This document shows positions 26,649 through 31,307 of a stretch of 44,126 nucleotides of DNA, piece by piece. The position numbers were made by a program, and so were the translations under genes. This DNA is from Lachnospiraceae bacterium. GTDB lineage: Bacteria > Bacillota > Clostridia > Lachnospirales > Lachnospiraceae. Below the pieces are notes generated by a model. It saw nothing but the letters and a program-made list of their open reading frames with translations, was not told where the DNA came from and did not search any database. The stretch is from positions 35,523 through 79,648 of the forward strand of contig JAAUZD010000015.1 in assembly GCA_014804785.1 (NCBI GenBank), read 5' to 3'. The first letter of the stretch is position 1; each line of letters begins with the position of its first letter.

Positions 26649-26689
26649 AAACATCTGGACAATGATGATTATAATAGGAGGTGTACATC

Positions 26690-26953
26690 GTGGCTAACAT
26701 TAAATCTGCAAAGAAGAGAATTTTAGTAAACAGAACCAAGGCTGAAAGAAATAAAGCAATCAGGTCCGGCGTGAAGACTGCTGTTAAGAAGGTAAACGCT
26801 GCTATCGAAGCAAACGATAAAGATGCTGCTGCTAAGGCTTTAGTTGCTGCTACAGCTACCATCGATAAGGCTGCTACTAAAGGTGTTTATCATAAGAACA
26901 CAGCTTCCAGAAAAGTATCTCGTTTGGCTCAGGCTGTAAATAAGATGGCTTAG
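26690..26953 (+). CDS. rpsT: 30S ribosomal protein S20
   Basis: S20 binds 16S rRNA early in small-subunit assembly. The 87-residue Lys/Ala-rich product begins ANIKSAKKRILVNRTKAERN and ends HKNTASRKVSRLAQAVNKMA, the family signatures. The start is GTG at 26690, eight bases after AGGAGG; a GTG three codons earlier overlaps that site. It is divergent from gpr, as in Bacillus, and has its own promoter and terminator. Confidence 0.98.
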   Translation: MANIKSAKKRILVNRTKAERNKAIRSGVKTAVKKVNAAIEANDKDAAAKALVAATATIDKAATKGVYHKNTASRKVSRLAQAVNKMA

Positions 26954-27018: not shown

Positions 27019-27035
27019 GTTATTGAATGGTGGGG

Positions 27036-27325
27036 GTGTCAAAAGGGGATGGGGGAAAAGGATGGACCGCCCTGTATAAAAAAAACTTCCGGCTCCTATG
27101 TACAGGGATAAGAAGTTCTAAAAATCCCGTGTTAAGGTATTTGGTATAGGACGCAAACGGCACCTTTGGTCATCCATGACCAAGTGGTGCCTTAATCGGA
27201 CATCCTGTCCGATTATTGCTGGTGGTTGAACGGGGTTTTAAGAACTTCTAATCCCTTCCCATAAGGAGCCGGAAGTTTTTTTTATACAGGGCGGTCCATC
27301 CTTTTCCCCCATCTCCTTTTGACAC
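27036..27325. repeat. Structured palindromic repeat, copy 1
   Basis: A 290-bp element with 61-bp outer arms (27036-27096 and 27265-27325) that are inverted repeats with a single mismatch. Inside is a 180-bp core (27091-27270) carrying a hairpin at 27159-27191 (GGCACC and TTGGTCAT stems) and another at 27193-27215 (TAATCGGACA/TGTCCGATTA). The core matches copy 2 in opposite orientation; the outer arms do not. No protein is encoded. It fits a MITE-like mobile element or a structured RNA/ssDNA element. It lies directly after the rpsT terminator and before the end of the protease gene. Confidence 0.85.
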
Positions 27326-27348
27326 TTTCATCATAGTGGTGCAGCTTT

Positions 27349-28170
27349 CTACTCTTTGTTTGAAATGATATTTTCATATTCTTTGGTGATGGTTTCGGCG
27401 GGGACGGCGGCAAGTTCGTTTTGGAGGGTGGCTCCGGTGAGCATTCCAAGGTAATTTCCATAAGCATCGAAGATGCCTCCGCCGGACATTCCGGGAATGG
27501 CTTCGCCTTTGGCATAGAGCATTTCTGTTTGGAAATCTTCTAAATATATGAGCGGGGAAATGAGTTGTCCTTCCATCATGACGGGGGTATTCCACTTAGA
27601 AGCTATATCCACCAGAAAAAGTTTACTGCCCTCGGCAGGGACTTTTTCTGATACAGTTTCATTTTCTGGAATCTGGGGTATTCGGATATTTCGGAAAGCG
27701 AGGAGTTCTTCATAGGTAAAGCCCTTGGTGGGTATACGGATGAAGCCTAAATCTGCCTCCTCGGAAACTCCGAGGAGGGCTCCTCCTGCTGCTCTTCCAT
27801 TAAAAAAAGTCACGTAACTGTCCTCATTCCAGTACTGCAGTACGTGTCTGTTCGTTACAATAATTATATCATCTTCCAGCATCTTATAAATACTCCCGCT
27901 GCCATAATGCCCTTCCACCTTTATCCGGACACAGCTGCAAAGCACATTTTCAAACGCCTCCTGCACCTCTCCTCCCACAGTCTTCCGGGTGACCAATAAT
28001 CCCAACTTAGCAGCCCCTCTATAATCCTCCTCCAGGCTAGTCACCTGAATCAAATGCCGCATCTCCCCCTCTCCCGCTGCCATAACATTACTGCCTTCCA
28101 TCCCTCCCAACACACTTCCCCATACAACAACCACCCCCAAAAAACAACAAACCCTTTTTCTCCAATCCAT
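27349..28170 (-). CDS. Secreted trypsin-like serine protease
   Basis: From the ATG at 28170 (GGGGGTG 6 nt upstream) the product is 273 residues. A signal peptide (MDWRKRVCCFLGVVVVWGSV to about AMAAGE at 32) suggests export. The S1-type catalytic triad is visible: His in IIIVTNRHVLQYW, Asp in SEEADLGFIRIP, and Ser in GEAIPGMSGGGIFDAYGNYL, followed by GMLTGATL. GSGSIYK before the His strand is typical of HtrA-like and V8-like folds. No PDZ domain or C-terminal membrane helix is present, unlike HtrA. The gene stands alone between two inverted copies of a structured repeat, and its base composition changes sharply between its 5' and 3' halves. Substrate unknown. Confidence 0.85.
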   Translation of the reverse strand: MDWRKRVCCFLGVVVVWGSVLGGMEGSNVMAAGEGEMRHLIQVTSLEEDYRGAAKLGLLVTRKTVGGEVQEAFENVLCSCVRIKVEGHYGSGSIYKMLEDDIIIVTNRHVLQYWNEDSYVTFFNGRAAGGALLGVSEEADLGFIRIPTKGFTYEELLAFRNIRIPQIPENETVSEKVPAEGSKLFLVDIASKWNTPVMMEGQLISPLIYLEDFQTEMLYAKGEAIPGMSGGGIFDAYGNYLGMLTGATLQNELAAVPAETITKEYENIISNKE

Positions 28171-28255
28171 ACCACACACCCCCAACTTAGAAAACCCTCA
28201 AAAATAGCCACATCCCCCAAATAATCACACATAAAAAATAGGAATAACGTAGAAC

Positions 28256-28493
28256 GGCATCATACGCAATTGGATGTCCTTTTGCGAGGCTTATGGAAAG
28301 GGATTAGAAATTCTCAGAATCCCGTTCAACCACCAGCAAGAATCGGACAGGACGTCCGATTCAGGCATCACTTGGTCATGGATGACCAATGATGCCGCTT
28401 GCGTCCACCGCCAATCCCCCTTATACGGGATTCTCAGAATTTCTTATCCCTGCACATAGCCGCGCAAAAGGACATCCAATTGCGTATGATGCC
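28256..28493. repeat. Structured palindromic repeat, copy 2 (inverted)
   Basis: A 238-bp element with perfect 31-bp outer arms (28256-28286 and 28463-28493) around a 174-bp core (28288-28461). The core is the reverse complement of the copy 1 core with scattered substitutions. It keeps the same two inner hairpins, at 28340-28362 (GAATCGGAC/GTCCGATTC) and 28364-28396 (GGCATC...GATGCC with TTGGTCAT/ATGACCAA). The outer arms share no sequence with those of copy 1. It lies 37 bp downstream of the RNase P RNA 3' end. Confidence 0.85.
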
Positions 28494-28530
28494 CCACCAT
28501 CCCCATTTATCCTTCATTATTTATAGAAAA

Positions 28531-28903
28531 ATCAAGCAGGACGATAAGCCGGGTTATGTCGTAGAATGATCATCTATCTAGGACTGCCGTTGCCGACAGT
28601 CTCAAGCGACCTACCTGAAAGCTCGCCGGGCAAGCTAAAACGCTCTCTGTTTGGTCTTGCTTCGGATGGGGTTTACATGTGCCCTGTCCGTTACCGTACA
28701 GGCGGTAGTCTCTTACACTGCCTTTCCACCCTTACCACAAGACTCAGAGTTGCGGCAAAGCCTCCGCTCTGAGCCCTGGGCGGTTTATTTCTGTTGCACT
28801 AGCCTTGGAGTCGCCTCCACCGGACGTTATCCGGCATCCTGCCCTGTGAAGCCCGGACTTTCCTCACCTGTTATAAAACAGCCGCGATCATTTATCCTAC
28901 TTG
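28531..28903 (-). ncRNA. rnpB: RNase P RNA, type A
   Basis: The catalytic RNA of RNase P, which matures tRNA 5' ends. On the minus strand the conserved elements appear in order: GAGGAAAGTCCGGGCTTCAC, AGGGCAGGATGCCGGATAAC, GTGCAACAGA, AAACCGCC, GGTAAGGGTGGAAAGG, AGAGAGCGTTTTAGC, and the 3' segment CATAACCCGGCTTATCG. The terminal P1 helix is formed by AATCAAGTAGG (5') and CCTGCTTGATT (3'); a T-run follows and probably terminates transcription. The architecture is type A, as expected for Clostridia, and not the Bacillus type B. Ends are estimated from P1 to within a few bases. Confidence 0.95.
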
Positions 28904-30567: not shown

Positions 30568-31307
30568 TATAATCCCTCCATGCCATTATCCACGCCTATT
30601 ATCTGTGCTGCTTTTTTTATGTACAGCATCTCCCCATTAAGTTCCTTCATGCGGGCATTGGCACGGGAACTTCCGCTGCCCTGCATGAGTCTTTCTTTGA
30701 TCTTAAGACTATTTTCCAACTCTCTCTTCAAAAACTTACCGAGCACCGGATGTCTTCGCTGTAAAAGCACCGGTCCAAAACGGTCGCAAATCTCCCGGTC
30801 ATATGGCAGACTTCCTTCCTTGGAAAAAACCGCCTTTATCACCGGATAAAACTTATCTTCCTCCAATATCATATCTTCCCAAACGATAGAATATCCCTCA
30901 TTTCTTAAAAATCTTCGGAAAAAGGGAACATCAGACTGAGGCTGGAGAATCAATTCTTTAAAATCCTTTGTCTTTGAGGGATACTGTGCAAGAATCCTCT
31001 GCATCAGTCGCCCCCCCATTCCTGCACAGATGAGGGTATCCGCCTCCCCCTCCTCATATGCCGTCAGCCCGTCAGAAAGACGCAATGTTATGTATTCCTT
31101 AAGCCCGGCATCTGCCACATGCTCCCTTGCACGCAGAAGCGGTCCCTTATTAACATCCATAGCAAGCACGCTGGGGGACGTTTTACCCTGCACCAGATAA
31201 ATAGATACATATCCATGATCACATCCCACATCACAAACCCGGCTGCCTTTTGTCACCATATCCGCCACCGCCTGCATCCTTGCCGACAAAATCACGTTTC
31301 CCGCCAT
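30567..31307 (-). CDS. trmK: tRNA (adenine(22)-N1)-methyltransferase TrmK
   Basis: TrmK methylates adenine 22 in the D-loop of tRNA using S-adenosylmethionine. The 246 residues have the SAM-binding motif SRVCDVGCDHGYVSIYLVQG at about 22-41, VLAMDVNKGPLLRAREHVAD, and ADTLICAGMGGRLMQRIL (motif IV region), followed by a helical C-terminal domain typical of the family. The ATG at 31307 overlaps the rpoD stop by one base (TGATG). rpoD-trmK order is widely conserved in Firmicutes. Confidence 0.92.
   Translation of the reverse strand: MAGNVILSARMQAVADMVTKGSRVCDVGCDHGYVSIYLVQGKTSPSVLAMDVNKGPLLRAREHVADAGLKEYITLRLSDGLTAYEEGEADTLICAGMGGRLMQRILAQYPSKTKDFKELILQPQSDVPFFRRFLRNEGYSIVWEDMILEEDKFYPVIKAVFSKEGSLPYDREICDRFGPVLLQRRHPVLGKFLKRELENSLKIKERLMQGSGSSRANARMKELNGEMLYIKKAAQIIGVDNGMEGL

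Follow-up and report, generated by a model that had tools for sequence, protein, structure and literature searches.

A trypsin-like protease gene lies between rpsT and rnpB in the 44,126-nt stretch of DNA analysed here (the window), and on both sides it is flanked by copies of a structured repeat in inverted orientation, a repeat which had been taken for the member of an undescribed family. This raises the question of what the repeats are, whether they and the protease gene belong together, and what keeps their structure.

Identity of the two copies and the position of the protease

The arrangement itself was confirmed, as the two copies share inverted arms of 170 nt (27096-27265 / 28290-28459) that are 85% complementary, the gene between them matches PF13365, and rpsT and rnpB lie outside the copies as claimed, together with a uridine kinase-type gene on the rnpB side and gpr beyond rpsT. 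Each copy also has palindromic arms of its own, 71 nt at 93% in copy 1 and 36 nt at 97% in copy 2. In the predicted fold of each copy a long outer stem leads into an inner junction that bears two main hairpins and a small third, which bears out the stem and the two-hairpin junction of the original prediction, and the folding energies were found 20 and 19 standard deviations below those of dinucleotide shuffles (z -20.1 for copy 1 and z -18.7 for copy 2).

An Rfam search of both copies returned RF01731, TwoAYGGAY, over the whole model (1-168 of 168) with 126.0 and 125.8 bits against a gathering threshold of 43. The original prediction had itself taken a match to a known Rfam family as the end of its claim, and with this full-model match of both copies the word 'undescribed' proved wrong. 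In the RF01731 alignments each window copy has, on one strand, two hairpins whose loops are of the GGA type. The repeats belong to a known but unexplained RNA family, and it is the vehicle, a miniature transposable element (MITE), that appears to be new. Two of the three guesses made at the outset, a MITE and a structured RNA, turned out to be one thing, a MITE with a structured-RNA core, and the third, a composite element, did not hold. Weinberg et al. (2010; PMC2864571, available text) listed TwoAYGGAY as a probable RNA that is unlikely to be cis-regulatory, and its function is still open since that description, going by the accessible parts of the papers on the family. The available text of Gardner and Eldai (2014; PMC4333381) reports CsrA-binding motifs in it, proposes CsrA sequestration as a candidate only, and already remarks on the poorly conserved external stem; in the accessible part of PMC11701678 the family is mentioned solely in a table of structure updates. 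In the available portions of the literature searched on TwoAYGGAY, RF01731, CsrA and MITEs we found TwoAYGGAY nowhere described as belonging to a transposable element.

The features of the locus are given in Table 1. The palindrome of copy 2 agreed with the coordinates predicted for it, and copy 1, predicted at 27036-27325, was extended to the element listed there. A scan of the window for the TIR with at most one mismatch gave three matches against 0.21 expected, the third of which, at 31246, is unrelated to the copies.

Table 1. Coordinates of the two TwoAYGGAY copies and neighbouring genes in the window
Feature	Position	Strand	Basis
Copy 1, full-length TwoAYGGAY MITE, 304 bp including terminal G and C	27029..27332	-	ends set from TIRs in register of the 7-bp duplication
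Copy 1, palindrome arms	27027-27097 / 27264-27334		inverted-repeat search
Copy 1, left TIR core GGTGTCAAAAGG	27035..27046	+	exact match to TIR of young G176 copies
Copy 1, right TIR core AGTGTCAAAAGG	27315..27326	-	one mismatch to G176 TIR
Copy 1, TwoAYGGAY RNA core (RF01731)	27097..27263	-	126 bits, model 1-168
Copy 1, hairpin, ACAGGATGT loop region, CsrA-site-like	27194..27214	-	sequence, RF01731 alignment
Copy 1, hairpin, CATGGATG loop region, CsrA-site-like	27159..27191	-	sequence, RF01731 alignment
Copy 2, palindrome around TwoAYGGAY core, without recognisable terminal repeats	28256..28493	+	inverted-repeat search, folding
Copy 2, TwoAYGGAY RNA core (RF01731)	28292..28458	+	125.8 bits, model 1-168
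Copy 2, hairpin, ACAGGACGT loop region	28341..28361	+	sequence, RF01731 alignment
Copy 2, hairpin, CATGGATG loop region	28364..28396	+	sequence, RF01731 alignment
Trypsin-like peptidase gene between the copies	27349..28185	-	PF13365, 36 bits
rpsT, flanking gene	26681..26953	+	
rnpB, flanking gene	28529..28903	-	RF00010, 304.7 bits

Inverted copies around one gene would suit a composite element in which both copies move together with the protease, and the same locus in relatives bears on this directly. We compared 23 congener loci, some of them cut by contig ends. The only one of these with cores, that of G203, has them at both sites in the same orientations, and they are of the second of the two sequence types described below (type B). 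In the other 22, which are without repeats, the protease stands between rpsT and rnpB in 16 and is absent in two, while in four rnpB lies beyond the available stretch. With the protease in place without repeats in 16 of 22 loci, the composite element that had been proposed is refuted for the window locus and we give it practically no credence; the protease is a resident gene and not cargo. The very close relative G243 (L123; rpsT 100%, protease 85%) has cores of type A at the two sites. Cores are missing from G208 and G213, yet their site 2 retains a hairpin of the same outer arms as copy 2 (GCATCATACGCAA...). The site in G208 is best understood as the outcome of a deletion between short direct repeats within the arms, and on this reading the copies at this locus are probably not new in the species of the window but old and in part lost. 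A clean empty site for the window copies was not found among the congener loci compared.

Ends, target duplication and outer arms of the element

The genome of the window holds 39 TwoAYGGAY copies over the cut-off, which form two sequence types, the window-like type A (28 copies) and type B (11), and 25 and 11 of these, respectively, were taken into the alignments. The 36 congeners have 0-53 copies each, and a match was present in 17 of the 37 genus genomes (own genome included), over the cut-off in 16, with no more than 55 candidates scored per genome. The many copies, their lack of coding capacity and their patchy presence among relatives are all traits of a MITE.

Some single copies deserve separate mention. 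At orthologous sites the core differs in type, A or B, between species despite common outer arms or flanks (window 28256-28493 and L101; also L052, L137, L147 and L153). One copy, L057:1501-1705 (G000 C41:8864-9068), has an insert of about 37 nt in its first GGA hairpin, and matches of 35-38 nt to the insert part occur twice in L117, one of the 22 congener loci without repeats, so that it looks like a small repeat of its own. The arms do not pair in two copies, L056 (G000 C41:31560) and L063 (G000 C8:40091); the left arm and flank of L063 are common to a copy in L061, owing either to recombination between copies or to an assembly join.

The ends of the element were read from young copies in another genus of the same family (G176), whose cores are 0.96 identical and whose arms are 0.93 identical between six copies. 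When aligned, these copies have sharp ends, GATTCGGGTGTCAAAAGGT ... ACCTTTTGACACCCGAATC, the TIR core TGTCAAAAGG is found with at most two mismatches at both ends of all 13 copies, and the element measures 308-312 bp, the terminal G and C not counted. A target duplication of 7 bp was seen in 19 young copies, namely all 13 retrieved from G176 and six from G122, with a mean per-position match of 0.77 as against 0.32-0.40 at lengths of 4-6 and 8-13; it is exact in eight of the 19 and matches in at least 6/7 positions in 13. Seven of the 12 copies retrieved from G122 had a visible TIR and were given to this test, one of them being skipped, and five of the 12 have other ends. A second TIR variant, GATGTTGGGGTCAAAAGGTCGC, was noticed in G122 (L222, L224, L225 and L227), with 7-bp duplications that are exact in three and 6/7 in L222.

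Copy 1 of the window has the TIR core at both ends (Table 1), and its flanks agree in 3/7 positions of the target duplication by reading of the sequence, which is either a decayed duplication or none. A Roseburia plasmid carries a TwoAYGGAY copy with one exact TIR (CCTTTTGACACCCGAATC) and one imperfect; on the plasmid of Roseburia sp. 831b a cobalamin riboswitch lies close to the TwoAYGGAY element (L416:2811-2980). In viral contigs no transposase with the ends of the element was found: three pattern scans returned 182 stretches, of which 142 were checked for both ends, and this gave five weak two-end matches, none convincing; there was no phage match. We consider it very probable that TwoAYGGAY is the RNA core of a MITE. 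The TIR and the target duplication would equally belong to a purely selfish MITE, whose GGA hairpins are either used in transposition or incidental, and in which any link to csrA comes from common ancestry of the motile members of the class; we regard this as a possible but less likely account, and evidence on both sides of it is given below.

The outer arms behave quite unlike the core. Core identity between copies in the genus has a median of 79-85%, while the arms fall to about the shuffled baseline of 0.70 (0.68-0.72 in four genomes and 0.77 among four G241 copies), a difference that a purely selfish MITE does not readily accommodate. The two arms of one copy are nevertheless 0.95-0.98 identical in the genus. 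In the young G176 copies this relation is reversed (0.93 between copies and 0.83 within), and near-perfect arms are no general feature, as the other genera measured have a within-copy arm identity of 0.80-0.88.

If the pairing of the arms were selected in RNA, G.U would be expected to outnumber A.C among their mismatches. This was not so, as we counted 204 G.U and 219 A.C overall (own genome 44:44, other genus members 53:74, other genera 107:101), omitting three truncated or partial matches (L138:3969, L160:1989 and L174:1) and all weaker opposite-strand matches. With G.U about equal to A.C, RNA-level selection on the outer arms is not supported. The core pairs gave 61 G.U against 35 A.C in 97 rows (p = 0.01), an excess confined to copies outside the genus (43:15, as against 18:20 inside it), and arms and core differed with a Fisher p = 0.009, the core count excluding the own genome's copies and the arm counts including them.

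Nine orthologous palindromes were compared between the own genome and its sister G243, and 60 positions had changed in both arms, 22 in one arm and 6 otherwise, a tally of positions, not of events, with arm lengths hand-set from earlier pairing. Transversions, which are impossible via G.U, make up 27 of the 60 two-arm changes; the one-arm changes include 12 transitions and 6 transversions, a make-up not different from that of the two-arm changes (p = 0.43). The nine were drawn from 11 ortholog pairs, C4:81134 (which looked non-orthologous) and C20:71683 (many Ns) being left out, and the non-complementary C41:31560 was never used; for two of the nine, both at C51:23, orthology is given by a single flank. 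Template-switch maintenance of RNA hairpins, as described in the available text of PMC8794818, involves changes of several bases in both arms by which pairing is restored. Joint change of both arms without an excess of G.U points to palindrome correction at the DNA level, and from these sequence comparisons we consider such correction of the outer arms likely. Covariation in the outer stem would then be no evidence of RNA function for TwoAYGGAY.

Genomic setting, GGA hairpins and csrA

Where copies on opposite strands have cores separated by less than 2 kb, they are divergent in the RNA sense in 27 of 27 pairs (22 in retrieved loci and five in the own genome) and in none convergent, although not all of these pairs are independent, some representing one site in several species and some loci having been picked for a visible pair. 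Among the matches listed in the family, genus and class surveys there was likewise no convergent close pair, and same-strand close neighbours numbered one in the retrieved loci and two in the own genome. Spacers of 22 close pairs measure 6-263 nt; L132, L144 and L196 are examples of the divergent arrangement. A promoter of their own, or a common central one in divergent pairs, gave no signal, and some spacers are only 6-34 nt long. On the side feeding the RNA strand a simple consensus score showed no promoter enrichment in 139 copies, an absence that agrees with a purely selfish MITE.

Retrieved loci, 80 in number, were hand-picked from the best matches listed in the family and genus surveys, visible pairs included, so that they do not form a random sample. 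Of 80 single copies, 51 have the 3' end of a gene as their nearest neighbour (p = 0.018, simple gene caller), and the idea of insertion next to terminators found weak support; relative to the RNA strand, the nearest gene is on the 3' side in 51 of 80 as well. This preference for gene ends, the great stability of the palindromes, and runs of T and of A within the copy 1 arms would fit a REP/BIME-like role, in which the hairpins are retained as bidirectional terminators or to stabilise 3' ends. By reading of the sequence, however, rpsT already has its own terminator hairpin ahead of copy 1, and a consensus scan, whose loop limit of 8 hides long-loop terminators including the rpsT hairpin, found no intrinsic terminator in either window copy; conserved GGA loops and co-occurrence with csrA are also left unexplained by such a role, which we consider improbable. 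A cis-regulatory leader RNA, each copy controlling the gene just downstream, is the function implied by the Rfam type 'Cis-reg', and in 20 of the 80 single copies a same-strand gene on the 3' side is indeed the nearest. It is not so in the remaining 60, and neither window copy lies in the 5' UTR of a same-strand gene, copy 1 standing after its neighbour's stop codon and copy 2 heading towards rnpB on the other strand. Taken with the 2010 scoring of the family against such a role (PMC2864571, available text), this makes a leader function very unlikely.

The core does keep one feature. On the RNA strand at least one GGA-loop hairpin is present in 39/39 cores of the own genome (two or more in 27/39) and in 56/56 of other genus members (two or more in 51), the other strand having it in 1/39 and 7/56; in other genera it is present in 43/48 cores (two or more in 24; other strand 3/48), and five of the 48 lack a GGA hairpin under a strict definition. 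Core stems vary while the GGA loops stay, mostly on one strand, which argues against hairpins that are incidental to a purely selfish MITE. We take the GGA hairpins found here to match the CsrA consensus. A fit of TwoAYGGAY hairpins to the CsrA-binding consensus is also reported in the available text of PMC4333381. On balance, CsrA likely binds the TwoAYGGAY core, as predicted from these motifs; that the family functions as a CsrA sponge is a more tentative proposal.

The own genome has a csrA match of 91.2 bits at C43:217177. A survey of the own family with one genome per genus found TwoAYGGAY in 35 of 200 and csrA over the cut-off in 108 of 200, and csrA was present in 34 of the 35 positives as against 74 of 165 negatives (Fisher p = 1.8e-9, a statistic that ignores kinship); the exception, G168, has a single TwoAYGGAY match, near a contig end. 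In a class survey of 393 genomes at least 90% complete, 35 were TwoAYGGAY-positive, 26 of them over the cut-off, and 135 had csrA. Here csrA accompanied 33 of the 35 positives as against 102 of 358 others (p = 8e-15) and 25 of the 26 over the cut-off (p = 9e-12), both statistics again ignoring kinship, and the exceptions were G403, with matches below the cut-off, and G522. The class positives span 13 families; eight of the 35 come from the own family, five of which are also in the family survey, and of those outside it 25 of 27 have csrA. A spread over 13 families with csrA in 33 of 35 is difficult to reconcile with a purely selfish MITE.

Inside the genus the picture differs, as csrA is present in 33 of 37 genomes and the repeats are not tracked by it. 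Two of the four csrA-negative congeners are rich in repeats (G203 with 53 copies and G241 with 34) and the other two have none, and the former are the sort of genomes that a purely selfish MITE would allow; the missing csrA in G203 (86% complete) and G241 (89%) may be an assembly gap. All four also lack fliW, but flhA is present, and flhA was found in each of G203, G241 and G168, the csrA-negative genomes with repeats that were tested for it. Since csrA and flagella are inseparable in these genomes, the association of TwoAYGGAY with csrA could stem from lineage or motility, which again leaves room for a selfish element. It is doubtful, though conceivable, that we are dealing with a transposon family that spreads CsrA-binding RNA, needing or exploiting CsrA, nearly restricted to csrA-bearing members of the class, and setting CsrA titration by its copy number.

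A proposed mobile CsrA-type RNA and its relation to known systems

The explanation that we favour, with moderate confidence as a whole, combines a TwoAYGGAY MITE, re-copying of its arms, CsrA-type hairpins, and dispersed sites or decoys. TwoAYGGAY would be the RNA-coding core of a non-autonomous MITE of about 310 bp with TIRs GATTCGGGTGTCAAAAGGT and a 7-bp target duplication; ends and duplication are seen in the young copies of other genera, and for the window copies they are suggested by the TIRs of copy 1. A transposase would presumably move the element in trans. Once a copy has inserted, its arms drift, and the long palindrome would be re-copied from arm to arm, as the pattern in the genus indicates, by a mechanism that may be template-switch correction; repeated re-copying of this kind would leave old copies with unique yet almost perfect stems. 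The core would be conserved because its transcript, if made, offers a pair of GGA-loop hairpins like those to which a CsrA dimer binds, and, least certain of all, dozens of copies might serve as dispersed CsrA binding sites or decoys.

Such a transposable-element core would explain the copy number, the scatter and the long variable outer stem of TwoAYGGAY. Near-restriction to csrA-bearing genomes makes of what was a guess from motifs a connection, open to testing, of a mobile element with a global regulator, and if this is true the copies would be among the first CsrA RNA sponges outside Gammaproteobacteria, in the form of dispersed mobile copies kept structured by palindrome self-correction. 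Its palindromes, being of different ages, also form a naturally occurring series on which template-switch correction could be measured in bacteria.

Bacterial MITEs and REPIN/BIME doublets are short and non-coding, with TIRs, target duplication, many copies and inverted doublets. The TwoAYGGAY element has those traits and in addition a conserved RNA with CsrA-type sites, and, compared with REPIN/BIME doublets, its doublets are divergent in the RNA sense. RF01731 as published (Weinberg et al. 2010; PMC2864571, available text) is the same model, matched here at all 168 positions far above the cut-off, to which we add its probable place as the core of a transposable element, much longer palindromic arms, TIRs and target duplications. 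The candidate CsrA-binding RNAs TwoAYGGAY and Bacillaceae-1, as set out in the accessible part of PMC4333381, concern the same family and the same two GGA hairpins, with CsrA sequestration already proposed; added here are the genome-level co-occurrence with csrA, the strand-specific loops and the mobile vehicle, CsrA binding being still predicted. The sponge RNAs CsrB/CsrC/RsmX/Y/Z of Gammaproteobacteria resemble it in their GGA-loop hairpins able to sequester CsrA (PMC4333381, same portion), whereas TwoAYGGAY has two hairpins per unit, dozens of dispersed copies and no promoter signal. Finally, the multi-base two-arm changes that restore pairing are shared with the template-switch hairpins of PMC8794818, which in its available text deals with RNA genes, while here a single genome has dozens of palindromes and other genomes contain younger copies.
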